A stretch of 64,000 nucleotides of DNA from Leptolyngbya iicbica LK (lineage in GTDB: Bacteria > Cyanobacteriota > Cyanobacteriia > Phormidesmidales > Phormidesmidaceae). The translations under genes were made by a program, and so were the position numbers. Location of the stretch: assembly GCF_004212215.1 (NCBI RefSeq), contig NZ_QVFV01000005.1:1-64000 (forward strand), in the 5' to 3' direction. The notes below the pieces were generated by a model. That model did not search any database and was not told where the DNA came from. It saw only the letters and a list, made by a program, of their open reading frames with translations. Shown here one piece after another: positions 17,322-29,592 of the stretch (within the stretch, counting starts at the first letter, position 1; each line of letters starts with the position of its first letter).

Positions 17322-17840
17322 ATGTCGAGCAAACGTTACACCTTTGAACTGGCGCGATCGCCCCAGGACGTTCGTGCTTACTATCGATTGCGACAGGCCA
17401 TCTTTTGCGAAGAGCAAGGCTTATTTGACGACCATGACGAAGACAATATTGACGCGATCGCTTACCCCATCATCGCGGTGGAAAATGACGTGATTGCGGG
17501 GAAAAAGATTGTGGGCGTCGTGCGTATTTATGAAGAAAAGTCGCGTCATTGGTATGGTGGGCGGCTGGGCGTACATCCTGACTATCGGCGGGTGGGCCGC
17601 ATCGGTAAAGGCCTAATCTACAAAGCGGTAACGACGGCAAATACCTGGGGGTGCGATCGCTTCCTGGCGACGGTGCAATTGCAAAATGTCCGCTTCTTCC
17701 GTCGTCAGCACTGGGAATCGATTCAGGAAATTTCCGTGTGCGATCGCCCCCATCACCTGATGGAAGCCGACCTCGACTTTTATCCACCGGGGAACGAACT
17801 GCGTCCCGTGCTCTCCTCCGGAGCCCTCAAGGTGTCGTAA
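17322..17840 (+). CDS. GNAT N-acetyltransferase, MSMEG_0567/Sll0786 nitrogen-starvation family
   Basis: 172 aa. GNAT fold with the acetyl-CoA-binding segment GGRLGVHPDYRRVGRIGKGL (residues about 79-98). The N-terminal FELARSPQDVRAYYRLRQAIFCEEQGLF and the C-terminal VQLQNVRFFRRQHWESI are characteristic of the family named after Sll0786, found with a nitrilase, a radical-SAM protein and an AIR-synthase-like protein in the Nit1C gene set. The acetyl acceptor is not known. The ATG at 17322 follows the NrtA-like gene by about 200 bases. Its stop codon overlaps the start of the next gene by one base (TAATG), so the two are translationally coupled. Confidence 0.88.
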   Translation: MSSKRYTFELARSPQDVRAYYRLRQAIFCEEQGLFDDHDEDNIDAIAYPIIAVENDVIAGKKIVGVVRIYEEKSRHWYGGRLGVHPDYRRVGRIGKGLIYKAVTTANTWGCDRFLATVQLQNVRFFRRQHWESIQEISVCDRPHHLMEADLDFYPPGNELRPVLSSGALKVS

Positions 17841-18814
17841 TGCTGGCCGATTTGGTGGCGGCCTTGCGGCCTGCCCTGGGGATTCTCAACAAACGCGACA
17901 TTCAAACCGCTGCCGATCACTTAGGCCGCTATGTGCCGCAGGCCGCCACAGGCGAATCCATTGCCTTGGGTGACGACACGGCAGCTATTCCCGATGGGGA
18001 TGGCTACCTACTGCTCGCTGCCGAGGGCATTTGGCCCACCCTGGTGCGGGAAGATCCCTGGTTTGCGGGCTGGTGTGGTGTCTTAGTCAACGTTAGCGAC
18101 ATTTACGCCATGGGCGGTCGTCCCATCGCTGTGGTCGACGCCCTGTGGACCGAATCGGCTGAGCAGGCCGAGCCCCTTTGGCAGGGCATGGTCGCCGCCG
18201 CTAAAACGTTTAACGTGCCCATCGTCGGCGGCCACACCAACTGCCACAGTCCCTACGCGGCGCTGTCGGTGGCGATTCTCGGTCGTGCTACTCGCCTGAT
18301 CACCAGTTTCGACGCCCAGCCGGGTGATGCCCTCGTTCTCGTAATGAATCTGGAAGGGCGATCGCACCCTAAATACCCCTTTTGGGATGCCGCCACTATG
18401 GCTAATCCGGTAGATTTGCAGCGCCATTTCGCCTTGCTGCCCCACATTGCCGAACAAGACTGGTGCAAAGCGGGCAAAGACGTGAGCATGGGCGGCATCA
18501 TCGGTACAAGTCTGATGCTGCTCGAAACCTCTGGCTGCGGTGCGATTCTGGACATTGACGCCATTCCCCGTCCCAACGCGGAACCGCTCGCCAAATGGCT
18601 GCTTAGCTTTCCCAGCTACGGCTTTTTGTTGAGTGTGTCGCCAGCAAGTTTTTCCCAGATGCAGCCCCATTTTCAGGCTGAGGGATTGGTTTGTGACGCG
18701 ATCGGGCAGGTGACAGCAGGGTCGCAATTGGTGCTGCGATCGCACGACGAATCCACGGTTTTTTGGGATTTTACCCAGGATGCGTTGACTGGGTTTGGCG
18801 ATCGTGGCGCTTAA
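17840..18814 (+). CDS. AIR synthase-related protein, Sll0787 family
   Basis: 324 aa from the ATG at 17840, which shares its A with the GNAT stop codon; a longer frame back to 17651 lies within the GNAT gene and is rejected. PurM/ThiL/SelD-like ATP-binding fold: SIALGDDTAAIPDGDGYLLLAAEGI near the N-terminus carries the acidic metal/ATP motif, followed by VNVSDIYAMGGRPIAVVDAL and VPIVGGHTNCHS. These blocks are shared with ThiL and PurM, which phosphorylate or activate substrates. The family is a fixed partner of the Sll0786-type GNAT in the nitrogen-starvation/Nit1C set; the reaction has not been established to my knowledge. Confidence 0.88.
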   Translation: MLADLVAALRPALGILNKRDIQTAADHLGRYVPQAATGESIALGDDTAAIPDGDGYLLLAAEGIWPTLVREDPWFAGWCGVLVNVSDIYAMGGRPIAVVDALWTESAEQAEPLWQGMVAAAKTFNVPIVGGHTNCHSPYAALSVAILGRATRLITSFDAQPGDALVLVMNLEGRSHPKYPFWDAATMANPVDLQRHFALLPHIAEQDWCKAGKDVSMGGIIGTSLMLLETSGCGAILDIDAIPRPNAEPLAKWLLSFPSYGFLLSVSPASFSQMQPHFQAEGLVCDAIGQVTAGSQLVLRSHDESTVFWDFTQDALTGFGDRGA

Positions 18815-19109
18815 TTGTGCCCTCTAAGAGCAGTTGCTCTGGTCAACGGTGCGTGATCTCAATCCCCAATCTCAGATCATCTTTATGGTTTCCGCAAAGG
18901 GTGAGGTTGTGATGTGTTGCGATCGCTGGTACTGCATAGCTACGGCCTTTTTCTAACTCAGCATTAAGTCCGAAAAAAAACTCAAAATCCCGCTTGGAAA
19001 ACTGTCAACCTTGCTAAATTTAACCGTTCAACTAAATTGTTTGGGCCAAGTTCTTAAGACGGATAATTCTCATTCCTAAGTTCTTGGGCTGAGTCCTTCA
19101 GGTAATCAT
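18815..19109. other. Intergenic region between convergent genes
   Basis: 295 bases between the AIR-synthase-like gene (plus) and the membrane ABM protein (minus). A short perfect palindrome AGAGCA-GT-TGCTCT near 18828 could end the plus transcript but lacks a T run. Nothing else seen. Confidence 0.45.
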
Positions 19110-19928
19110 TTAAGCGAGGATGTTGAAGAGTAAAACCATCGCTCCCATGGCTAAAAGTGTTGATGAAGTGCCCAAAACTTCGGCCCGCACTGAAATTTCT
19201 TGGTGAGCAGGCTGCAGCCAAAAATCCAACACCCTAACGACAAAAGGCATAACTACGAATGTCAAAATGCTACTAGTGATCATCAAATTGACCCACATGG
19301 CACTCGCCATCGACCAATCTTCCATAATGCCGAAATACTCAAATATCCGATCTTGCACCATGATGACCGGATAAAGTGCTAGCACCACAGACAGAATTTG
19401 CTTCCACGCCGCAGGGCCAAGACTATCCATCTCAGTCCCAGATCGCCGAGAAAACCACCCTTCTAATCCTGTGGTGAAAGACTTAAATCGATAACTTTCA
19501 AAGATGTCACGCCCCTGTTGCAAGATTGCTTCTCGTTCTTTGGAAGCAAGCCACTGGTTAAGATGCTCCGGTTGATCAAAATGCACCACCCAATACCACT
19601 TGAGTACACCGTCTTTGCAGTTGAGGGGACGATGGCGGTCAACCCGGACAAACCCTGAAGAATCACGCGCACTCCGAATCAGTTGTGCATGCCACCCACG
19701 AAACGCCCAACTTTTTTGTTTGGGGACAATATACTCAACAACGACGCTGGAATATCGAATATTGTTGTGGTCTGGAAGGGCTTCGATGAGGCTGATCGAG
19801 GCTGATCGCGAAACAACAGCTGTGCGCCATAGCAAGCGTTTCAGTCCTGTCAAGACATTATTCGCTGTCAACCTCAATTCTTCTTTGGAAATATTCATAC
19901 CTGACCGATCGATCTTCTTTGTATACAT
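19110..19928 (-). CDS. Antibiotic-biosynthesis-monooxygenase (ABM)-like protein with C-terminal membrane helices
   Basis: 272 aa. Residues about 55-165 resemble a dimeric ferredoxin-like ABM domain (SVVVEYIVPKQKSWAFRGWH, then FVRVDRHRPL, WVVHFDQPEHLNQWLASKEREAIL). A linker EGWFSRRSGTEMD leads to three membrane helices (KQILSVVLALYPVIMV, AMWVNLMITSSILTFVVMPFVV, SSTLLAMGAMVLLFNIL). It is a paralogue of the 22120-22803 gene: FRAYRFKSFTTGLEGWFSRR-type linker and LYPVIM/LYPLIM are shared. Cyanobacterial ABM-plus-membrane proteins have no assigned function. The start codon overlaps a TGTATACA operator-like site (19920-19927). Confidence 0.72.
   Translation of the reverse strand: MYTKKIDRSGMNISKEELRLTANNVLTGLKRLLWRTAVVSRSASISLIEALPDHNNIRYSSVVVEYIVPKQKSWAFRGWHAQLIRSARDSSGFVRVDRHRPLNCKDGVLKWYWVVHFDQPEHLNQWLASKEREAILQQGRDIFESYRFKSFTTGLEGWFSRRSGTEMDSLGPAAWKQILSVVLALYPVIMVQDRIFEYFGIMEDWSMASAMWVNLMITSSILTFVVMPFVVRVLDFWLQPAHQEISVRAEVLGTSSTLLAMGAMVLLFNILA
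19920..19927. promoter_or_regulatory. GntR-type operator copy 1 (TGTATACA)
   Basis: TTTGTATACATT, one of four WWTGTATACAWT copies found only between 19.9 and 25.9 kb. It overlaps the start codon of the membrane ABM gene. A partial second half-site (GCATACAAA, 19932-19940) follows. Confidence 0.5.
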
Positions 19929-20094
19929 TCAGCATACAAACTTTAGACAGGGGAAGATTCGGTCTTAAGATATCCTCATTTTAGTGAGGGTATCTGCATG
20001 AGTGTATCTGAATGCAGCGACGACTGAACCAATCACGAGAGGACATCATCACTGGGTACCACTACGGCCTTGCTTCGCTCAATGTGAGAACGAG

Positions 20095-20343
20095 TCAGCG
20101 ATGAAAAACAATGGCTCTGAAAGCGAAAAAGCCGCCAATCAGAGTCAGGATAAAGAGGTTTTGCTTCAAGCTCTTTAATTGTGAAATGATTTGTTCGGCT
20201 TGGGCTGAAGTGATTCCTGAGGGCAGCTCGGTTGATTGGGGAGTCGACACTGATGACGCTGAGCGAGCCTTCTGCGCTGGCTCTTGAAGCACATCATGGT
20301 TGTCAGGAGTGCTGGCTGTATTGTTGGAGTCTGCTTGAGTCAT
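20095..20343 (-). CDS. Small single-pass membrane protein, hypothetical
   Basis: 82 aa from the ATG at 20343, which has AGGAG six bases upstream; an in-frame start at 20367 has none. Residues 1-45 are hydrophilic and Ser/Thr/Gln-rich. The segment SGITSAQAEQIISQLKSLKQN is an amphipathic helix, and NLFILTLIGGFFAFRAIVF near the C-terminus is one membrane helix. No family was recognised. It stands alone between the two ABM-type genes. Confidence 0.55.
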   Translation of the reverse strand: MTQADSNNTASTPDNHDVLQEPAQKARSASSVSTPQSTELPSGITSAQAEQIISQLKSLKQNLFILTLIGGFFAFRAIVFHR

Positions 20344-20582
20344 CGTTTCTCCTAGCTGATGTGACAAAGCTCGTTAGGGGGTGATTTGTGCCAAATGTTT
20401 GCGGTGTGTAGCGATCGCGGATAAGGAAACTAGAGTAATCGGTCACTTAGGTCAGGTATGAACTGAACCTAACACACAGCCCATCCACATTCGGCATCAA
20501 AGCGCTAAAACGCCTGCTGATTCAAGAATTTATTGTCGAATCAATATAGCTTATGTACCTTTTCTAAGGTGGCAACAAACAA

Positions 20583-20590
20583 TGTATACA
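20583..20590. promoter_or_regulatory. GntR-type operator copy 2 (TGTATACA)
   Basis: AATGTATACAAT in the divergent region between the 82-aa membrane protein (minus) and the secreted helical protein (plus). Same 12-base pattern as the sites at 19920, 24863 and 25879. Confidence 0.5.
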
Positions 20591-20608
20591 ATAACAATAT
20601 CGTCTGCA

Positions 20609-20656
20609 ATAATGTCATTGCATGGAGATGTTTCACTGGCAAGGCAATGACATTAT
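20609..20656. repeat. Perfect 13-bp inverted repeat
   Basis: ATAATGTCATTGC (20609-20621) and GCAATGACATTAT (20644-20656) are exact inverted copies separated by 22 bases. It starts 18 bases past the TGTATACA site. It could be a stem-loop in an untranslated RNA, the ends of a very small mobile element, or a two-site operator. Confidence 0.6.
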
Positions 20657-21157
20657 AAAGATGTAAGAGAGTTTTCGAGTCAGATGTTACGATGACCGAG
20701 CTAAATCAAGAGATTTGTTAGTCTGAAATCGACGGCATTCAGTGGGAGGAATTTACTGTATAGTCGTCCTATCCCTGAAATCTGGATTGATGACTCAGGT
20801 TTGGTACGCACGAGGTGTGTTCATATACTCTTTCCCATCTAAAGAAAGGTGCCAAAATTCATCTGGCCCGGTTTCTTATAAGGATCTAGGAGTGATGCTG
20901 CTAGTGCTGAGGTAAGGTCCAATACCAAAACTCGGTTTTGACTCTAGATGAGGTTTATTGTCACTGTTGATTTAGTCCTACTGCTGGGTTAATTCTAAAT
21001 TGTCTAGGTTGAGGATTCTTGCAGAGATTCAACAAGGCTTTATCAATTGTTGGTCTCTATTGCTTTGAATCCAATTACAGCTGAACCACAACTTTCAGGT
21101 TGACAGATGACTAGGCAACTTAGGTTTGAGTTATGTTTTCACCTTTCGGAGGTTTTT

Positions 21158-21805
21158 GTGCTGAAAATTAAGTCTCAATTTTCCAAACAACTTGTCCGCG
21201 TGGCGTTGATTAGTGTGTTAGTGCTTGGACTTGGATTGTTAGGTAATCCTTCACGTGCGTTGGCTTCTAGTAAGGTTGCTACTCCTGAAGCGTTAAATTT
21301 AGCAATCAACGAAGCGGCTCAAGAGTTTGTTGAGTCTATCTTGGATGACTACGGCGATATTTTGGAGAGCTCTTTTGATACAGCTTACGATCCCTTTAAG
21401 ACGGCAGTAAAAAGCCTCTCTAAACAAATTAGCAAGGCTGAAAAATCGGCTCAGAAGGCAGGGGAAGAGGCAACAACACCTACGTTAATGATTCCAGAGG
21501 GGGCGTTTCAATCAGCGGTTGATGCTTTCTCAACTTTGCAAGAAACTACTGCCGGATTTAAGGCTCAGTTAGAGTCGGCCCCTGAAGTAGTTCAAGCTCT
21601 GATTGACGAGCAAGTTGGCGCTAAAATGGATGCGCTTGATCAGGCGATCGCAGAAGTTTCAACTGTTGTCGATCAGCTTGCGGCAGATGTTGCCGGTTTA
21701 GATGCGGCTGATCCCTCGGCAACGGCTACTTTCAATGAGCATGCAACTGCGTTGACCCAGTCAATCCAGGCTGTGGATTTGGCGATTGATGGGTTTGATA
21801 GCTAG
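21158..21805 (+). CDS. Secreted helical protein, hypothetical
   Basis: 215 aa from a GTG at 21158, chosen because GGAGG lies five bases upstream and a signal peptide follows at once (KLVRVALISVLVLGLGLLG then cleavage near SRALAS). A longer frame from 21107 lacks such a site. The mature part is rich in Ala, Glu, Asp and Ser and almost all helical (FVESILDDYGDIL; AVKSLSKQISKAEKSAQKAGEEA; EQVGAKMDALDQAIAEVSTVVDQLAADVAGLDAADP region), which suggests a coiled-coil periplasmic or extracellular protein. No enzyme motif or family was recognised. It ends in a strong terminator. Confidence 0.72.
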   Translation: MLKIKSQFSKQLVRVALISVLVLGLGLLGNPSRALASSKVATPEALNLAINEAAQEFVESILDDYGDILESSFDTAYDPFKTAVKSLSKQISKAEKSAQKAGEEATTPTLMIPEGAFQSAVDAFSTLQETTAGFKAQLESAPEVVQALIDEQVGAKMDALDQAIAEVSTVVDQLAADVAGLDAADPSATATFNEHATALTQSIQAVDLAIDGFDS

Positions 21806-21836
21806 GTTTGCAAAGCTTTGATAAATAGACTTGAGG

Positions 21837-21868
21837 ATGTGGCTTGGATTACAGGCCACATTTTTTTA
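21837..21868 (+). terminator. Rho-independent terminator
   Basis: Stem ATGTGGC (21837-21843) with GCCACAT (21855-21861), followed by TTTTTTT. It closes the transcript of the secreted helical protein and overlaps the end of the convergent small membrane gene. Confidence 0.85.
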
Positions 21869-22108
21869 GACTATTTGTTGAAATAAGTGAACGATCTCCT
21901 CGGGTAAATGGCTGATTTCTAACCAGAGTTGTCGAGGGCTAATATTAAACACAAACTGCAACAAGAGCACGATCGCGACGATCGCTAAAATCGTCTTTGC
22001 TTCTTTATTCAACAGCCGGAACATTAACCGGGAAATTAATAGAACAATTGCGATCTCTCCTGTGAGAGTAACCGTTTGCGCATCAATAGCTTGGGCGATC
22101 ATATCCAT
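21866..22108 (-). CDS. Small two-helix membrane protein
   Basis: 80 aa, starting at the ATG at 22108 (MDMIAQAIDAQ), nine bases after GAAGG. The longer frame back to 22411 runs antisense-like through the ABM gene and is not credible. Two hydrophobic segments (GEIAIVLLISRLMFRLL and AKTILAIVAIVLLLQFVF) are followed by an amphipathic tail (LWLEISHLPEEIVHLFQQIV). It begins 11 bases after the stop of the ABM-type membrane gene and is surely co-transcribed with it. No function is known; it could be a partner subunit. Confidence 0.6.
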   Translation of the reverse strand: MDMIAQAIDAQTVTLTGEIAIVLLISRLMFRLLNKEAKTILAIVAIVLLLQFVFNISPRQLWLEISHLPEEIVHLFQQIV

Positions 22109-22119
22109 CAACAAAACCT

Positions 22120-22803
22120 TCAAACCTCTTGAAACACCAACATCATGGTGAGTAATCCAGCGCAGATGATACCTAAACCCGTTAAATCGACCGAGAAGGT
22201 CGATTGACGATAGGCTGGATAAAGCCAAAAACTCATCATTCGCGTAATGAACGGCATGACACCAATTGAGAGCAAAGACGAAGTTGCTAAAGTTGCCAAA
22301 AGTGTCACTGCCGCAGGGGACCAGTTGCTCAAAAATGACTCCGGCCAGAATGCCAGTCTTAGCATGATTAAGGGATACAGTCCCAGCACGACGGCTAAAA
22401 TCTGTTTCCACACGGGTGGGCCGAGATGACTTTTCTCACCACTAGATGCTCGCCGAGAAAACCATCCTTCTAGACCTGTAGTAAAAGACTTAAATCGATA
22501 AGCCCGAAATACTTTTTGCCCTTGCTCAGTTAAGTGCTTGCGCTCTTTGGAATCGACCCAGTCTTGTAAATTTTCAGGGGAGTCAAAATGGATAATAGTG
22601 TATCGCTTGACAACATCATTTTCACAGACTAACGAAGGACATTGATCTAATCGGATGAAGCCAGGTTGGCGACTCGCTAATCTCTGTAACTCCCATTGCC
22701 AACGGTCAAATGCAGCTATCGCTGAGTTGGGAACTATATGCTCAACCACCAAACTGCTGTAAAAAACATGGCTGTCTGGATGATTTTTTGCTGTACTTGA
22801 CAC
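22120..22803 (-). CDS. ABM-like protein with C-terminal membrane helices (second copy)
   Basis: 227 aa, paralogue of the 19110-19928 gene. The ABM-like domain covers residues about 12-120 (VFYSSLVVEHIVPNSAIAAF, GFIRLDQCPSLV, TIIHFDSPENLQDWVDSKER), then the conserved linker RFKSFTTGLEGWFSRR, then three membrane helices (KQILAVVLGLYPLIML, AAVTLLATLATSSLLSIGVMPFI, GLGIICAGLLTMMLVF). It lacks the first 40 residues of the other copy. It forms a two-gene unit with the small membrane protein downstream. Confidence 0.72.
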   Translation of the reverse strand: MSSTAKNHPDSHVFYSSLVVEHIVPNSAIAAFDRWQWELQRLASRQPGFIRLDQCPSLVCENDVVKRYTIIHFDSPENLQDWVDSKERKHLTEQGQKVFRAYRFKSFTTGLEGWFSRRASSGEKSHLGPPVWKQILAVVLGLYPLIMLRLAFWPESFLSNWSPAAVTLLATLATSSLLSIGVMPFITRMMSFWLYPAYRQSTFSVDLTGLGIICAGLLTMMLVFQEV

Positions 22804-23029
22804 GCGATGACCTCATAATTTGAATGACTCTCGCTCTCAGACTCAAGCTCTGGTGATCAGAAAAGTGCGTGGGCAAATGTTTGAGAGCAATCGCTATTTC
22901 TGGATGCCGATTAGACCTCGCCTGCTAGATTTGACAGAACAGCCAGGGAGAATCAAATAGAAAATCCTTGGCTAAAGCAAGATAATTCAGAAGCGGATGA
23001 AGGAATGGGCAAACTTCTGCAGGACGATA

Positions 23030-23653
23030 TTAGTCATCGCTCCCTGTGATGTTCTCCATTTCCGCTTCTGCTTGTTCCATTCCGGCTTTGATCTTGTCCA
23101 TAATCTCTTCTGACGAGGGCATGAATTTATCTCTCATTTCAACGCCGGTTTTGATCTTGTCCTTGACGGCTTCGGGAACTGATGCCCCTTCGGGAATCTT
23201 GGACTCAATTTTGTCAATGATTTCTTCGGAAGAGGGCATAAAAACCTCTTTCTTCTTCAGAAAAAGCTCTTTCTTCTCCATCGCTGACAGGGTTGAAAAG
23301 GCGTCTCTTTGAGGGATTGTGTTGATCACGGACTTGATTTCTCGCTTCTGTTCAGGCGTTAACATGAGCGATCGAAAAGTCTTACGAAAGCTCTCGCCTT
23401 CCAACATATTGGCCTCAAACATTTCCTGCTGCAGGGGCGTCAAGATTTCCACAAGCTGAGGTATGACATCTGATTTGAGCTGCTTTAAGCTTTGCGTCTC
23501 ATTGACTGACGATGAATGGCCAAACAAGCTAAATCCCAAAGTCGTACTCATCGGAGCAATGCTACTGGCATGAACTGGACTAAGCGCTCCGAACGCAGCA
23601 CTTAGGATCAATAAGCCAGACAAAATTGAGACTAAAAAGCGGTTGAGTTTCAT
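23030..23653 (-). CDS. Secreted LTxxQ-motif protein (Spy/CpxP-like), hypothetical
   Basis: 207 aa with a clear signal peptide (FLVSILSGLLILSAAFGAL, cleavage near VHASS). The mature part is helical and charged and has two L-T-P-x-Q boxes (ILTPLQQEMFE near residue 75; LMLTPEQKREIKSVI near 97), as in Spy/CpxP periplasmic chaperones. The C-terminal third holds a repeated block: F-M-P-S-S-E-E-I-(I/M)-D-K-I at about 137-148 and again at about 176-187. An extracytoplasmic stress or chaperone-like role is inferred from the motif only. It lies just downstream of a DUF1275 membrane gene on the same strand. Confidence 0.68.
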   Translation of the reverse strand: MKLNRFLVSILSGLLILSAAFGALSPVHASSIAPMSTTLGFSLFGHSSSVNETQSLKQLKSDVIPQLVEILTPLQQEMFEANMLEGESFRKTFRSLMLTPEQKREIKSVINTIPQRDAFSTLSAMEKKELFLKKKEVFMPSSEEIIDKIESKIPEGASVPEAVKDKIKTGVEMRDKFMPSSEEIMDKIKAGMEQAEAEMENITGSDD

Positions 23654-23694
23654 GGTGTTTGGTTTACCCTTTCACGCAATGGCAAAAAACTGTT

Positions 23695-24486
23695 TTACGA
23701 CGCTGACGGCTGAGTATAGTGGTGAACATAAGCCGCGATCGCTAATACTGAGATGATGATGGTTGGAAAAACCAGTGTCCACCATGACTCTGAGACAAAG
23801 ATTAAAAATGCAGCGGCTACCCCACCTATAGCAAAACCAATAATTACTGGAAGATAGCGACTAATGCGCTCCCAAGACTCGGCAGCCTCCTGTTTAGCCA
23901 CTTCTCCGGAGTCAAATTTAGCTCCGATAAGCTGTACTAAATCGATGGTCAGCTGGGTCGTATTTCCCGTCATAACGGTAGTCGGAATATAGCTTTTGAA
24001 TACTCGTGCCTCCTTCATCAACGTATTCTGAATGGCCATAGCCACAACCCCCGACATGCCGATAGGAAAGATGTATTCTTCCTGAACATCTAGAATCAAA
24101 GCAGGTGTAAGGGTGGCGCTGATAATTAGAAAAATCGTAAGGGCAACTGCTTCTGCCGTGAGCAATACGGCAAAGACTGGCCATTGGCGACGACGAGCAA
24201 ACCTAGCTAATAGTGAAGTTAAAGCGACTGACAACATAAATACAGGAATCATCAACAGGCGCGTGAGGGTCGATTCTTCTTCTTGATCGACGAAGGAAGC
24301 GCCTGCCAGAGCAATGTTTCCGGTGACGTGAGCCGTAAAAATGCCAAATAGGATAATGAAAGCTGACGTATCGATGAAGCCAGCGACTAAACTCAGCAAA
24401 AATCCTGCAGGGCGATCGCCCACCAGATAACCACTGATGCTAAAGATCCTGTGGGGCTTTGAAATTGACGTCATTTCGCCAGTCAA
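23695..24486 (-). CDS. YoaK/DUF1275 family membrane protein
   Basis: 263 aa with six to seven membrane helices. The family pattern is clear: AGFIDTSAFIILFGIFTAHVTGN (residues about 35-57), then SGVVAMAIQNTLMKE, and a conserved TTVMTGNTTQLTIDL (about 168-182). YoaK-like proteins are widespread and of unknown transport function. The start at 24486 is TTG, about ten bases after TAGGAG; an ATG at 24474 is the alternative. A GTA-N8-TAC box lies at 24760, with a TAGATT hexamer 24 bases away in this direction. The gene is divergent from gntR. Confidence 0.85.
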   Translation of the reverse strand: MTGEMTSISKPHRIFSISGYLVGDRPAGFLLSLVAGFIDTSAFIILFGIFTAHVTGNIALAGASFVDQEEESTLTRLLMIPVFMLSVALTSLLARFARRRQWPVFAVLLTAEAVALTIFLIISATLTPALILDVQEEYIFPIGMSGVVAMAIQNTLMKEARVFKSYIPTTVMTGNTTQLTIDLVQLIGAKFDSGEVAKQEAAESWERISRYLPVIIGFAIGGVAAAFLIFVSESWWTLVFPTIIISVLAIAAYVHHYTQPSAS

Positions 24487-24759
24487 AAATTCAGTTCTCC
24501 TATCAATCTTGGGGCTGCGATGACAGCGGGTGCAGGGCCACGGTTATCGAGCTAACTCGATCTGCCAGACAGTTGCATTTGTATTTAAGCTACTAACTAA
24601 AAAGCGGTGTTTACCAAAAAGTCGAGCAGTTGAATGTTAATCAAAATTCAACATTCAGCCATGCAAATGCGATTAACATACCTTTCTTGCCCTGATTGGC
24701 TAGAACAGCGGCATAGCCATATCTATATGAATCTAATCTCAACTAATCCAGTGAAATCT

Positions 24760-24773
24760 GTACCTAAAACTAC
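24760..24773. promoter_or_regulatory. NtcA-like box (GTA-N8-TAC)
   Basis: GTACCTAAAACTAC. Read to the left (minus strand) a TAN3T hexamer TAGATT occurs 24 bases away, which could serve the DUF1275 gene. To the right no -10 is found at 22 bases. Such boxes occur by chance about once in 4 kb, so this is only suggestive. Confidence 0.35.
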
Positions 24774-24862
24774 AAATTAAGCTGCAAACTCCCTCACAGG
24801 CACCGAACATTTCCCAAGGCTGAGCAGCATTCTTAGCTCCATTAATGTCAATGCATACCAAT

Positions 24863-24870
24863 TGTATACA
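24863..24870. promoter_or_regulatory. GntR-type operator copy 3, upstream of gntR
   Basis: ATTGTATACATT, 46 bases before the gntR ATG. It matches the general FadR/FCD-type operator T-x-G-T-x2-A-C-x-A. The position suggests autoregulation. Confidence 0.6.
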
Positions 24871-24915
24871 TTGAATTAGCACTGTGAATTCAGATTTTCT
24901 ACTTTACAATGTTAT

Positions 24916-25635
24916 ATGCCGCTGACTTTTGCGACAGATTTTATGGGCAAGCTTTTTAGCAAGATTTATTGGGCACTGCGGCAAGAGATTTTGTCCGGCC
25001 AACTCTCCCCTGGGGAAAATTTGATCGAACAAGGGTTAGCCGATCGCTTTGCGGTGAGTCGCACTCCCATTCGGGAAGCTGTTCGCCAGCTGCAGCAGGA
25101 AGGGTTGATCGATGCTGATCCGCGTGGCGGCATTCGAGTGGCGGTGATTACAGTGGCAGATGCCATTCATCTATACGACTGTCGCCTGGGGTTAGAGCAA
25201 GTGGCGGCCATGGGGGCCTGCGAAAACGCGACCCCGCAGCAGTTGGATGAATTGCAGCGCTGTTTGCTAGAGGCACAGTTCTCTAATCTCCCTCAAGCTG
25301 AAGCGTCAGCGGCGGAATTAGAAAACCGCTTACAGATTGATCGCAGCTTTCATTGCCTGATTGCAGAAAGTTCAGGTAATCCCTGGCTGACTCAACTGCT
25401 CAGCCAAATTTTGAACAAAATGTCACTTCTAGGTAGCCGTGTCACCCATCACAATCCAGCCGCGTTAGAGATTTGGGCCGAGCACGAGCGAGTAGTTGAA
25501 GCAATTTTGGAGCGAGATGCTTCAGCGGCTTCGATCGCCATGCGTGACCACTTAGTGGCGAGTAAGGCACGCGTTGTTCAAGAACTCCAGGGATTACAGT
25601 CTAACGTTGCTTTAAACAGTCTCAAGATTATCTGA
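24916..25635 (+). CDS. GntR family regulator, FCD (FadR) subfamily
   Basis: 239 aa. N-terminal winged helix: ALRQEILSGQLSPGENLIEQGLADRFAVSRTPIREAVRQLQQEGLI reads as a standard GntR domain (residues about 20-66), with SRTPIREA the recognition helix start. The C-terminal FCD domain is all-helical, with DRSFHCLIAES (about 146-156) and HERVVEAILERDASAASIAMRDHL carrying the metal-binding His and Asp. Ligands of this subfamily are small organic acids, sugars or nucleobase breakdown products. TGTATACA sites occur upstream of itself and of the NCS2 permease, so the permease substrate or a product is the likely effector. The regulatory link is inference. Confidence 0.93.
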   Translation: MPLTFATDFMGKLFSKIYWALRQEILSGQLSPGENLIEQGLADRFAVSRTPIREAVRQLQQEGLIDADPRGGIRVAVITVADAIHLYDCRLGLEQVAAMGACENATPQQLDELQRCLLEAQFSNLPQAEASAAELENRLQIDRSFHCLIAESSGNPWLTQLLSQILNKMSLLGSRVTHHNPAALEIWAEHERVVEAILERDASAASIAMRDHLVASKARVVQELQGLQSNVALNSLKII

Positions 25636-25837
25636 CGTTAACGATATGTCATCCCTCAATCGGTTTGCTCCCCAGGTTTTAAAAAGGAGTCACACAACTC
25701 TGGGCTACGTGAAATGCGAGACAATTCTTAATTAATTTGGAGATTTGAGAGAGTTACTTAGGTTTTAGTGTTTTGCATTTAGATGTCGATCGCGGATATC
25801 TCAATGCATTGCTTCTTTGTTAGTAAATTGAGAATGT

Positions 25838-25879
25838 GTAACGTTAAATACCGATTCGCTAAGGACTTTATTTTAGTTT
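25838..25879 (+). promoter_or_regulatory. Canonical NtcA-type class II promoter
   Basis: GTAACGTTAAATAC (25838-25851) is a perfect GTA-N8-TAC. Exactly 22 bases later comes TAGTTT (25874-25879), a perfect TAN3T -10. This is the textbook layout of NtcA-activated nitrogen-control promoters in cyanobacteria. It faces the NCS2 permease gene. Confidence 0.78.
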
Positions 25880-25887
25880 GTATACAA
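25878..25887. promoter_or_regulatory. GntR-type operator copy 4 on the permease promoter
   Basis: TTGTATACAA, a perfect 10-base palindrome. It overlaps the last two bases of the -10 hexamer and the predicted transcription start, the ideal place for repression. Confidence 0.68.
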
Positions 25888-26053
25888 TCTTGGTCGCCTT
25901 AGCTAAAAACACTTTCAGAGATTCTTATTGACTTTGTTTTGGTGGAATTTGTCTGCGTGAGAGTGGTTGTTTAGCCTCAGGCCATCGTGGGCGTTGAGCC
26001 ACATTTGTTGTTAGCTACGCACCTTAAATTTAGATTTTGGAAAAGTTTGGCTT

Positions 26054-27463
26054 ATGACTAATCCCGAAGCCGCTCCAGACCAGATGATGTTGTCCGAAGA
26101 GGATACATCTCTGGAAAGCGCTCCCACTGGAGTTGATTTGATTTACGGGCTAGAAGATCGTCCTCCCCTGCGGGAAACGCTATTCGCTGCGGTGCAACAC
26201 GTTTTTGCCTGTTTTGTCGGTATTATCACACCTGCTCTGATTATTTCTGGGGCGCTAGGGTTGGATCCTGCTGATGGGGCTTATCTCGTCAGCATGTCGC
26301 TATTTGTCTCTGGCGTCGCTACGTTCATTCAGGCTAAGAAGATTGGCCCTATCGGGTCTGGTTTGCTCAGCATTCAGGGTACGAGCTTTGCCTTTATTGG
26401 CCCGATTATTGCAGCGGGTGTGGCGGTGACGGGGGCCGGTGGTACGCCGCAGTCTGCACTCGGTACCATTTTTGGGCTGTGCTTTCTGGGGTCATTTGTG
26501 GAGATGATTCTCAGCCGATTTATTCAGTTTGCCAGCAAAATCATCACGCCACTAGTCACCGGCATTGTCGTTACACTCATTGGTTTGACGTTAGTTAATG
26601 TTGGTCTTACCAGTATGGGTGGGGGCTTTGCCGCGCGCGAAGCGGGCACCTTTGGCAGCCCTGCCTACCTGGGACTGTCGCTGTTGGTATTGGCCATCAT
26701 TGTGATTCTAAACAACGTCGGTGGTGCATTTTTGCGCATGTCGTCGGTTGCGATCGCGCTAGTTGTGGGCTACATCATCGCGATTCCGATGGGGTTGGTG
26801 AATTTCAGCAACCTCGCCAATTTGGGTGGAATTAATGTTCCAATTCCCTTCAAATATGGGTTTGGATTCAACTTTTCGGCGTTCATTCCGTTCATCTTTC
26901 TGTACCTCATCACCACCATTGAGTCGACTGGTGACTTGACGGCAACGTCGCTGTTGACGGGGCAGCCAATCACCGGGCCAAAGTATATGAAGCGGATTAA
27001 AGGCGGTATTTTGGGCGATGGGGTTAACTCGGCGATCGCAGCAGTTTTCAACACGTTTCCCAACACCACTTTCAGCCAAAACAACGGGGTAATTCAGTTA
27101 ACGGGGGTTGGCAGCCGCTATGTGGGGCTATTTATTGCCGGTATTTTCGTGATCCTCGGCATTGTCCCAATTGTGGCCGGTGTGTTTCAGACCATTCCGC
27201 AGCCGGTCTTAGGCGGGGCCACCATCATTATGTTTGGCTCGGTGGCGGTCGCTGGCATCAAAATTTTGTCGTCGGTCAATTTAGACAAACGGGCCTCGAT
27301 TATTTTGGCGACTTCTTTGGGCTTAGGACTAGGCGTCAGCGTTGTGCCCGACATTTTGGAACAGATGCCGCCTTTAGTGAAAAGCATCTTTTCATCGGGT
27401 ATCAGTACAGGCGGTTTAACGGCACTGGTGCTGAATATGGTGCTACCGGGTCGCCGCATTTAG
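26054..27463 (+). CDS. NCS2 (uracil/xanthine/urate) nucleobase permease
   Basis: 469 aa with about 12-14 membrane helices. The NCS2/NAT hallmarks are present: AVQHVFACFVG in helix 1 (the QH pair) and the signature QNNGVIQLTG (Q-N-x-G-x4-T) near residue 343. The helix-8 Glu lies in TTIESTGDLTATS, typical of xanthine/urate-type carriers. It imports a purine or pyrimidine base with H+ or Na+. The start MTNPEAAPDQMM gives an N-terminal cytosolic extension. A single-gene transcript is likely, with an NtcA-type promoter, a GntR operator and a strong terminator, which suggests use of nucleobases as a nitrogen source. Confidence 0.92.
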   Translation: MTNPEAAPDQMMLSEEDTSLESAPTGVDLIYGLEDRPPLRETLFAAVQHVFACFVGIITPALIISGALGLDPADGAYLVSMSLFVSGVATFIQAKKIGPIGSGLLSIQGTSFAFIGPIIAAGVAVTGAGGTPQSALGTIFGLCFLGSFVEMILSRFIQFASKIITPLVTGIVVTLIGLTLVNVGLTSMGGGFAAREAGTFGSPAYLGLSLLVLAIIVILNNVGGAFLRMSSVAIALVVGYIIAIPMGLVNFSNLANLGGINVPIPFKYGFGFNFSAFIPFIFLYLITTIESTGDLTATSLLTGQPITGPKYMKRIKGGILGDGVNSAIAAVFNTFPNTTFSQNNGVIQLTGVGSRYVGLFIAGIFVILGIVPIVAGVFQTIPQPVLGGATIIMFGSVAVAGIKILSSVNLDKRASIILATSLGLGLGVSVVPDILEQMPPLVKSIFSSGISTGGLTALVLNMVLPGRRI

Positions 27464-27500
27464 GGCCTCTCGTTCATCGACACATCGGATAGCTCACGAT

Positions 27501-27535
27501 AGCTTCAGGTTTACACATCACCTGGAGCTTTTTTG
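27501..27535 (+). terminator. Rho-independent terminator of the permease gene
   Basis: Stem AGCTTCAGGT (27501-27510) with ACCTGGAGCT (27520-27529), one wobble pair, followed by TTTTTTG. It lies 38 bases past the permease stop codon. Confidence 0.88.
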
Positions 27536-27720
27536 TGTGGCTGATTTGAGGAGAGTCCCAACTAGCGGTTGAGTGAGCGCGATCGCCCATAACGGCTCCC
27601 CGGTTTTATTCCATGAGTAAGTTTAATGGAATCGCTGAAACCTAGTTTTGGTAATCCTTTTTAAGATTGTCTATCGTAGATGTATCGAAGGAAAACGATT
27701 CATCTCAGGCGGTAGATACG

Positions 27721-27918
27721 ATGCAAGTCACGACCAGTAACCTTTCCCCAGTAGGCTTTGTGCAACTGGCCCATAGCCTATTTTTGGGCCGCACTCTAGC
27801 CGATACCTACGGCTTTGGCACGGTGACGGCTGACTATCTGCGGGTTCCTCAGCAGAACTGGACACTCGATCAACTGTTGCTGCTGTCTAGTGCCCGGTCG
27901 AGCACCACTCTCGCTTAA
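27721..27918 (+). CDS. Small protein, tandem paralogue 1
   Basis: 65 aa from the ATG at 27721; a TTG at 27667 would add 18 residues of low character. Not recognised. It shares with the next gene a core of L-G-R-x-L-x3-Y-G-x-G, then P-x3-W-T-x2-Q-L-x3-S-x-A-x-S (here FLGRTLADTYGFG and NWTLDQLLLLSSARS). The pattern suggests two helices with a short linker, no membrane segment and no Cys. It lies between the NCS2 permease and a LysR gene. Confidence 0.6.
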   Translation: MQVTTSNLSPVGFVQLAHSLFLGRTLADTYGFGTVTADYLRVPQQNWTLDQLLLLSSARSSTTLA

Positions 27919-27963
27919 AGATCGCAATTTGTTTTCGCTGCGTTTAAAAAAGGAGTTAATCAA

Positions 27964-28158
27964 ATGAAACCGACTAGCAATCACGCATCTCATCGCAATC
28001 TGACCGATGCTGCTCGCCGATTGAATTTAGGCAGAGCCCTGGAAGAAGCTTATGGAGCAGGCGTTATGGGGACTGACACCCGGCAAGCTCCGTCCAGAGC
28101 CGGGTGGACGGTCGCCCAATTGGTGGCAATGTCTGAAGCCAAGTCGTTGTATAACTAA
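27964..28158 (+). CDS. Small protein, tandem paralogue 2
   Basis: 64 aa with a strong site AAGGAG ten bases ahead of the ATG. It aligns with the preceding gene along its whole length: LNLGRALEEAYGAG and GWTVAQLVAMSEAKS correspond to the two conserved blocks. It is 45 bases downstream, so one transcript is likely. Its stop codon overlaps the stop codon of the convergent LysR gene by three bases. Function unknown. Confidence 0.65.
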   Translation: MKPTSNHASHRNLTDAARRLNLGRALEEAYGAGVMGTDTRQAPSRAGWTVAQLVAMSEAKSLYN

Positions 28159-29114
28159 TCGCTGTCTGGTAGCCCGATCTGAGGAAGCGGGGTTTCGGGC
28201 GAGATCGCGGCTGGTGGAGTAAATTGAGATCGCAAAATATCCAGCAAAGCATAGACCGCTGGTGTCAGCAGGGCATCGGCTAAGACCGCAACGCCGATGG
28301 TGCGCATTAACGGTGTCGGCAGAGAATATACCTGTACCGTTGGCGGAATCGGCTCTGCTGACAGTCGAGGCAAAATCGTGCCCCCTAATCCCTGGGCCAC
28401 TAAGCTGACGGTGGCCGCATCCGTCTCAATTTCGTTGACCACGTTGAGCCAGTAGCCGAGCCCGTTAATGTGTTCGTACACTGGGCGCATCATCACATAA
28501 TCAACTGGCGGCATGATTAACGGCTGTTGTGTCAGTTCTTCCCAAGTCAGAGGGGCGCTCTTGAGCTGGGTGTCTGGCGGCAACAACACAACGTATTCAT
28601 CCTGCAGCAATTCCCAGGTTTGCAAGCCCTGACCGGCAGGCAGCGTCACGATACTAATATCGGCGCGACCTTCTTTGAGGGCCTGCTTGGCCTGTTGATC
28701 GTCGTCATGTTCATTCAGGTTGATGATAATGCCCGGAAATCGCTGATGCAGCTGTTTGATGCTGCTGGGTAAGACGTGGGTGGCCACGCTGCGAAAGGTG
28801 GCCACTCGCACTTTGCCGTGCTCGACCCCTTTCGCGATCGCCGCCTCGCGCAAAATGGCCTCAGTGCTATTTAAAATGCTGTGGGCATGGGCCAGAATGC
28901 GATCGCCCACAGGCGTCAACGTCGCCCCATGCCGCCCCCGAGAAAAAATAATGACGCCCAGCGTCTCTTCCAAAGTAGAAATGGCATGACTCACTGCCGA
29001 TTGCGAAATACCTAATGCCAGGGCCGCCTCACTAAAGCTGCTCGTCTTTGCCACCGCTGCCACAATTTCGAGTTGCGTGAGCTTAACTTGGTTGTGCGGC
29101 AGCTTTTTCATCAC
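28155..29114 (-). CDS. LysR family transcriptional regulator
   Basis: 319 aa. The N-terminal HTH is standard: TQLEIVAAVAKTSSFSEAALALGISQSAVSHAISTLEETLGVIIF from residue 13. The effector domain follows (VRVATFRSVATHVLPSSIKQLHQRFPGI; GRADISIVTLP; EYVVLLPPD). The ATG at 29114 begins MMKKLPHNQVKLTQLE. No divergent partner gene shows its target. The closest genes are the two small paralogous proteins, convergent and overlapping at the stop codons. Confidence 0.93.
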   Translation of the reverse strand: MMKKLPHNQVKLTQLEIVAAVAKTSSFSEAALALGISQSAVSHAISTLEETLGVIIFSRGRHGATLTPVGDRILAHAHSILNSTEAILREAAIAKGVEHGKVRVATFRSVATHVLPSSIKQLHQRFPGIIINLNEHDDDQQAKQALKEGRADISIVTLPAGQGLQTWELLQDEYVVLLPPDTQLKSAPLTWEELTQQPLIMPPVDYVMMRPVYEHINGLGYWLNVVNEIETDAATVSLVAQGLGGTILPRLSAEPIPPTVQVYSLPTPLMRTIGVAVLADALLTPAVYALLDILRSQFTPPAAISPETPLPQIGLPDSD

Positions 29115-29592
29115 TCACTCGAGAAACCGTGGAACTTTAGGGATATACGGAGCAATCATTTGCCCGTCGTTGCGACCAGAAGAGTCAGGCTTCCGTTCCC
29201 TGCCCTCTACTGAGAATGTTTGAGCGCTGATAGCAACCGCTTCTGCAAGGGATGTCTGACCAAGACAGCGTCCAACAAGGTGGCAATGTCTATGCCTGTT
29301 GTCGCCCAAACAGCCAGTCGGATTAAGGATTTAAGCCAGCCAACTCAAGGTTTGAGCAGGCCAACTCAAGCGTTTTGATGCTCGGTGACGACAAGATGCT
29401 TCTCATAAAAAAACACCTTAGCCAGCTTGTATCCCTCTTTTGAGAGATTATCTAAAGACGCCAAATCCGGTAAGTGACATGGCGGCGCTGAGAATTACAA
29501 GACCCAAGACATTGAACGATCACGTTGCTTTGGCTGAACAATCACAGAAGCTGGTTAGAGTAAGCCGCAAGTTTCCCAAAATTCAGCATATT
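29115..29592. other. Intergenic region with a possible gene remnant
   Basis: 478 bases. On the minus strand a short frame from about 29335 down to a stop at 29207-29209 reads like the C-terminus of a protein (WATTGIDIATLLDAVLVRH, then PLQKRLLSALKHSQ) but has a stop just upstream and no start, so it may be a decayed gene end. The 11-mer GCCAACTCAAG occurs twice, 22 bases apart, near 29338-29370. Nothing else seen. Confidence 0.35.

Follow-up and report, generated by a model that had tools for sequence, protein, structure and literature searches.

Which signals control the gene of a cyanobacterial nucleobase permease, and are the same signals shared by other genes of purine use? The question is raised by a region of the window (the whole 64-kb stretch of DNA analysed here) in which an NtcA-type promoter and a candidate GntR-type operator appear to be combined upstream of such a gene. 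The region was read directly and compared with the rest of the genome (G000, 5.72 Mb) and with other cyanobacteria.

Promoter architecture upstream of the permease gene

On direct reading of the window, an NtcA box (GTAACGTTAAATAC, of the form GTA-N8-TAC) is located at 25838-25851 on the + strand. A spacer of exactly 22 bases (25852-25873) separates it from the hexamer TAGTTT (25874-25879, + strand), which has the TAN3T form of a -10 element. The palindrome TTGTATACAA at 25878-25887, to which no strand is assigned, overlaps the -10 element and the predicted start, and it is a candidate GntR-type operator. The first-pass annotation had marked the box, the N22 spacing, the hexamer and the palindrome, and every one of its coordinates was found to be correct. 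The ATG of the permease is at 26054. Transcription would start around 25885-25886; if it does begin about 7 bases past the -10 hexamer, the center of the NtcA box falls near -41.5. The predicted 5' leader (25888-26053, + strand; approximately 168 nt from the putative start) has no Rfam match. A riboswitch in this leader was considered and rejected: the Rfam search of 19000-29500 yielded a single snoRNA model, below threshold and at another place.

Canonical NtcA promoters carry GTAN8TAC at about -41.5 and TAN3T as the -10 element, and activation by NtcA is established to follow the rise in 2-oxoglutarate that nitrogen shortage brings about, according to the available part of PMC3898017. NtcA is encoded by the host (TIGR03697, 379.8 bits against a cut-off of 244.95). 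A GTAN8TAC box (GTN10AC in its relaxed form), a center near the predicted -41.5, a TAN3T -10 element and a host-encoded NtcA are therefore found together, and the NtcA-type layout that had been proposed for this promoter is canonical class II. Concerning the operator, TTGTATACAA is a palindrome with the GT..AC core of FadR/FCD-type GntR sites. Its 2-nt GT..AC spacing is that of HpxS, UxuR and other sites of the FadR subfamily, as given in the portion of PMC4494728 at hand.

Conservation of the module

By itself, the NtcA motif is not significant, since the full pattern is not enriched genome-wide: it occurs at 11 + 5 = 16 places in the genome, and the reversed pattern at 22. The window has one perfect match only, and five matches with at most one mismatch against 3.7 expected; TTGTATACAA with up to two mismatches is not enriched in the window either (19 found, 19.7 expected). 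For TTGTATACA, 15 strand matches at 12 distinct places of the genome stand against nine matches of the reversed control, which is a modest excess, and four of the 12 places (19919, 20582, 24862 and 25878) fall within 6 kb of sequence in the window. It is because of its conservation across permease loci that the module rises above chance.

Homologues of the permease were found in 29 of 59 relatives. TTGTATACAA is present upstream in five of the 29 homologue loci examined (a count that includes one locus without upstream sequence), and three of these five have a perfect NtcA box. Two more loci, from Phormidesmis priestleyi ULC027bin1 (L084) and Phormidesmis sp. RL_2_1 (L085), came from searching named genomes for GntR, which brings the permease loci with TTGTATACAA to seven. 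In an ungapped alignment on the operator, GT-N10-AC stands exactly 40 bp before it in 7/7 loci (GTAN8TAC in three, GTAN8CAC in three and GTGN8TAC in one), and TAN3T follows at N22, i.e., at offset -4, again in all seven. At any other of 400 offsets GT-N10-AC never appears in more than one of the seven loci. The leader differs in length and sequence among the loci while the position of the module stays locked. Between this genome and G005, aligned bases (gaps left out) are identical at 47/57 positions of the module and at 173/358 of the remaining intergenic region. Additionally, G013 bears a further permease locus with GTAACTGATGATAC-N22-TAN3T, the -10 element of which is inside TTGTATACCGTATG. 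This comparison backs the NtcA-type layout, and it also favors the earlier reading of the palindrome as a GntR-type operator lying across the -10 element and the probable start.

The 16 NtcA patterns are nevertheless not randomly placed: seven of them stand approximately 100-230 bp before a correctly oriented gene that is nitrogen-related or of the purine set. These genes are glnA (TIGR00653), urtA (TIGR03407), nirA (NF007125), a nitrogen-starvation gene of the Sll0783 family (C1; TIGR04044), an M20 allantoate-amidohydrolase-type gene (NF006771) beside the gene of the paralogous regulator GntR-B described below, an ABC substrate-binding gene that follows a biuret-amidohydrolase-like gene, both below cut-offs (perfect pattern L008 at G000:C2:119697), and the NCS2 permease of the window (pattern at 25838). 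The remaining nine comprise one before a flavoprotein-like gene, on the opposite strand of the Sll0783 intergenic region, one located 75 bp before a response-regulator-like gene, two at distances of 584 and 728 bp from other genes that they precede, and five that fall within frames, at their edges or antisense to them. On C1, the Sll0783-family and nitrilase-like genes occur with two NtcA patterns pointing opposite ways. The Sll0786/Sll0787 nitrogen-starvation set is represented in the window too, by GNAT and AIR-synthase-like genes at 17322-18811 (TIGR04045 and TIGR04049, above cut-off).

The permease and its predicted cargo

The permease (26054-27463, + strand) belongs to the NCS2 family, as the first-pass annotation had it, and is a probable urate/xanthine symporter. 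It scores 436.1 bits with TIGR03173 (pbuX; cut-off 414.15), and among PDB sequences it is closest to a uric acid-xanthine permease. The cargo had initially been left as purine or uracil; the purine half is borne out by the pbuX model, the PDB match and the gene neighbors, while uracil was rejected, the uracil permease model giving 108.7 against a cut-off of 477. Specifically, the permease of G024 is beside an HpxO urate hydroxylase and an M20 allantoate-amidohydrolase-type enzyme, and that of G029 is beside an OHCU decarboxylase and an 8-oxoguanine deaminase. In L085 it is near a LysR gene, a broken hpxO-like frame and a hydroxyisourate-hydrolase-like gene, as read from translations. The host itself has hpxO, HIU hydrolase and OHCU decarboxylase genes clustered at G000:C2:215.7-217.9 kb, each scoring above its curated cut-off. 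Family models, PDB match, purine-gene neighbors and host urate genes thus make urate/xanthine the best guess, and the cargo is most likely urate or xanthine and not uracil. The hpxO-like gene of L085 (12349-13508) extends over two frames of a metagenome assembly, reflecting decay or sequencing error.

The two GntR regulators

Upstream of the permease, a GntR/FCD regulator (GntR-A) is encoded at 24916-25635 on the + strand (Pfam GntR 66 bits, FCD 83.8 bits); no NCBIfam model matched it above its cut-off. Its true start is probably 24943 (MGKLFSK, as in relatives), and its orthologues are 67-79% identical. A second operator-like site, TTGTATACAT, is located at 24862-24871 (no strand), ends 45 bp before the annotated start of gntR and probably serves autoregulation. 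GTATAC also precedes gntR in G029, L084 and L085, and G005 has none before its gntR. Linkage of GntR-A to the permease is seen in five of the seven loci, and in four of those five its own gene has an upstream GTATAC.

The genome also encodes a paralogue, GntR-B (G000:C11), which is 48-50% identical to GntR-A and has the same VSRTPIREA stretch. Its divergent promoter reads GTAAATCATTTTAC-N22-TACGCT with TTGTATACAGTATAC. Typed by percent identity, GntR-B types are present in 29 of the 30 genomes (out of 59) that have a GntR match. In G004 and G024, TTGTATACAA is present and GntR-B was detected, with GntR-A not found (the contig of G004 ends 469 bp upstream), so that the paralogue may read the site too; G029 has the operator and GntR-A, with no match for GntR-B. 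The operator may be read by GntR-A, by GntR-B or by both. The earlier assignment of control to the adjacent GntR protein is thus favored by the linkage in 5/7 loci and weakened by G004 and G024.

A possible wider regulon in cyanobacteria

The composite GTAN8TAC-N12..22-GTATACNGTATAC, in which GTATACNGTATAC has the form GTATAC-N-GTATAC, occurs at 19 places in 18 of the 388 genomes of the class, and the reversed control at none. For 17 of the 19, the 3-kb locus has a homologue of purine-type genes or of GntR from this genome or G029 (the set being GntR, M20, HpxO, OHCU decarboxylase, dihydropyrimidinase-type HydA and NCS2), one of the 17 being this genome's own GntR-B locus. The two composites without such a homologue are L110, with a hydantoin-racemase-like gene by eye and an ABC ATPase, and L116, with nothing. 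The gaps are 19 (eight places), 12 (five), 22 (three), 21 (two) and 15 (one). TAN3T at N22 is within the operator or overlaps it in 13/19 composites; at gap 19 the operator sequence itself dictates this TAN3T, which therefore adds no independent evidence, and what counts is the preferred spacing. The commonest gaps, 19 and 12, differ by one 7-bp repeat, which would place the -10 element on the first or the second repeat.

Counted alone, GTATACNGTATAC is present at 148 places in 76/388 genomes, with 12 places in 10 genomes for the reversed control (places added by eye). Forty non-composite GTATACNGTATAC regions were picked by hand among the matches listed; 30 of them have a purine-set homologue, two of these resting on a 26-27% deaminase match, and 10 have none, against 0/20 control regions. 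Site and GntR match co-occur among 57 relatives (16/18 vs. 14/39, Fisher p 1.9e-4, relatedness not corrected). A perfect NtcA box stands at 12-22 bp in 19 of the 148 places, and the idea that the box belongs to every GTATACNGTATAC site was not supported. The flanks of 43 other sites hold GTAN8TAC three times (0.8 expected), GTA-N6-TAC, which has no known meaning, seven times, and the relaxed GT-N10-AC 45 times against 21 expected, base composition being uncontrolled.

We lean toward the view that a so far undescribed regulon for purine nitrogen is shared among cyanobacteria. It would fuse an NtcA-dependent promoter with a GntR operator and would reach from porin, permease and ABC transporter to urate and allantoin enzymes. 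In such a fused promoter, the -10 element (TAN3T, N22 from GTAN8TAC) would be within GTATAC-N-GTATAC or overlap it, and with the -10 inside the operator, NtcA-driven polymerase and a purine-sensing GntR protein would compete for the same bases. The permease promoter of the window would be the single-palindrome variant of this design.

Neighboring genes and further sites in the genome

A LysR regulator is encoded at 28155-29114 on the - strand (Pfam). LysR genes, those of other loci being read from translations, also accompany the permease in G004, G029 and L085, and one lies close to GntR-B; the LysR protein is a possible second input. A DUF1275 membrane protein (23695-24486, - strand) is a recurrent neighbor with a homologue in seven of the 40 sampled operator regions, recurs in G005 and G029 as well, and may be a purine-related transporter. 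Two predicted membrane proteins without Pfam match, encoded on the - strand at 22120-22803 and 19110-19928, resemble each other by eye. The former is likewise a recurrent neighbor, with homologues in L115, L126 and 1/40 sampled regions, and TTGTATACAT lies at 19919-19928 over the annotated start of the latter. Relatives of the two adjoin NCS2/GntR or hpxO loci, and the pair is a possible unrecognized part of purine use. Another operator-like site, ATGTATACAA at 20582-20591 (no strand), is in a long intergenic stretch with no evident target gene.

The 12 genomic TTGTATACA places divide into four in the window, one at GntR-B (C11) and seven others; of the eight outside the window, C11, C2:71660 and C2:1032654 fit the regulon. 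At C2:71660 (L074), TTGTATACAA is followed after about 40 bp by an OprB-type porin gene. The porin homologue of G005 (65% identical) has TTGTATACAA at a similar place (L105:10119), and a homologue (55%) adjoins the permease in G029, making the porin a possible outer-membrane route for purines. C2:1032654 (TTGTATACAGTATGC) precedes an ABC ATPase that is 71% identical to the ATPase behind the composite site of G054. At C4:373366 (L079), TTGTATACA is 47 bp before a DUF1028 gene. The four remaining places are in or over other frames. The porin, ABC and DUF1028 sites all lack a perfect NtcA box at distances up to 120 bp. The host hpxO cluster was rejected as a member, neither NtcA box nor operator being found upstream; the hpxO genes of G155, G156 and G167 do have the site.

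Proposed mechanism and alternatives

Judging from the sequence comparisons, we are largely confident that urate/xanthine uptake would be activated by NtcA and controlled through the GntR operator. The NCS2 permease would import urate or xanthine for use as nitrogen. When nitrogen runs short, NtcA would bind GTAACGTTAAATAC, centered approximately 41.5 bp upstream of the start, and activate the class II promoter, TAGTTT serving as the -10 element. A GntR/FCD repressor (GntR-A and/or GntR-B) would bind TTGTATACAA across the -10 element and start and block RNA polymerase, until a purine-derived ligand at its FCD domain released it. The output would then be nitrogen shortage AND purine signal.

The operator could be read mainly by the unlinked GntR-B running a wider purine regulon, with GntR-A as a duplicate of the same or a narrower role. 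The spread of GntR-B types over 29/30 GntR-positive genomes, the TTGTATACAGTATAC in its own promoter, the VSRTPIREA stretch shared with GntR-A and the TTGTATACAA of G004 and G024, where GntR-B alone was found, all agree with this; as the linkage of GntR-A in 5/7 loci, the GTATAC before its own gene in 4/5 and the presence of operator and GntR-A in G029 with no GntR-B match speak against it, we regard it as possible but doubtful. A different question is the sign of the GntR effect, which could be that of a ligand-dependent activator or dual regulator, as for HpxS of Klebsiella, and not of a pure repressor. HpxS is named among the GntR activators or repressor/activators in the accessible part of PMC4609117, and its sites share the 2-nt GT..AC spacing in the available part of PMC4494728. 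The operator of the window, however, overlaps the -10 element and the predicted start, a position typical of repression, and the -10 is within or overlaps the operator in 13/19 composites, so that activation or dual action is unlikely.

The identity of the activator has also to be weighed, because LysR genes near the permease in several loci, and near GntR-B in one, would allow the GT-N10-AC element to belong to the LysR protein of 28155-29114 and not to NtcA. The element nevertheless matches the NtcA consensus, position and -10 published in PMC3898017, as far as its available part goes, and glnA, urtA and nirA of this genome are preceded by the same pattern; ownership by LysR is thus very improbable. 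Still less credible is a chance match with the true promoter nearer to the gene: the genome-wide lack of enrichment and the long predicted leader (~168 nt) would suit it, but the motifs are position-locked in 7/7 loci, in contrast to a leader of variable length and sequence.

Comparison with known systems

To our knowledge, the use of organic nitrogen by cyanobacteria is understood mostly for urea and amino acids. Among the matches listed in the open-licence literature, NtcA together with GntR at cyanobacterial purine genes was not found, which leaves absence from print unproven; in the same literature we found no paper on NtcA with xanthine dehydrogenase in cyanobacteria, and nothing related on NtcA with allantoin. 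NtcA and GntR are not mentioned in a work on purine exchange in the sea (PMC11698098), nor are cyanobacteria in PMC4562309. With an NtcA-GntR promoter conserved at genes of the urate, xanthine and allantoin type, a purine-nitrogen regulon would become directly testable. Such a regulon would predict which strains live on urate or allantoin, and when, and it suggests functions for recurrent neighbors such as the DUF1275 and unnamed membrane proteins. Engineers of cyanobacteria would, in addition, gain a small natural AND gate from this promoter.

Taken singly, the parts are known, as is the principle of a nitrogen regulator with a GntR protein at purine genes. The permease resembles NCS2 urate/xanthine permeases (pbuX; UapA) in its pbuX score and PDB match, its substrate here being assigned from family and neighbors. 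The NtcA class II promoters of glnA, urtA and nirA have the same GTAN8TAC near -41.5 and TAN3T -10 element (PMC3898017, available part). Unlike in those promoters, a candidate GntR-type operator here overlaps the -10 element and predicted start. At the nir operon, NtcA works with NtcB, a LysR-type activator, and the likeness consists in NtcA having a pathway-specific co-regulator, i.e., AND-type control; here, in contrast, NtcB is replaced by a GntR protein that probably acts as a repressor. In 2011, Guzman et al. reportedly described HpxS, a GntR protein, with NAC at the hpxSAB purine/allantoin promoter of Klebsiella. HpxS is a dual regulator and NAC belongs to the LysR family. Both systems combine an FCD-type GntR protein with a nitrogen regulator at a purine/allantoin promoter, and the HpxS sites resemble TTGTATACAA in their spacing (PMC4494728, portion at hand). 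In the promoter presented here, however, NtcA, of the CRP family, would replace NAC, the candidate operator is placed on the -10 element of the permease, and the host lineage is unrelated.
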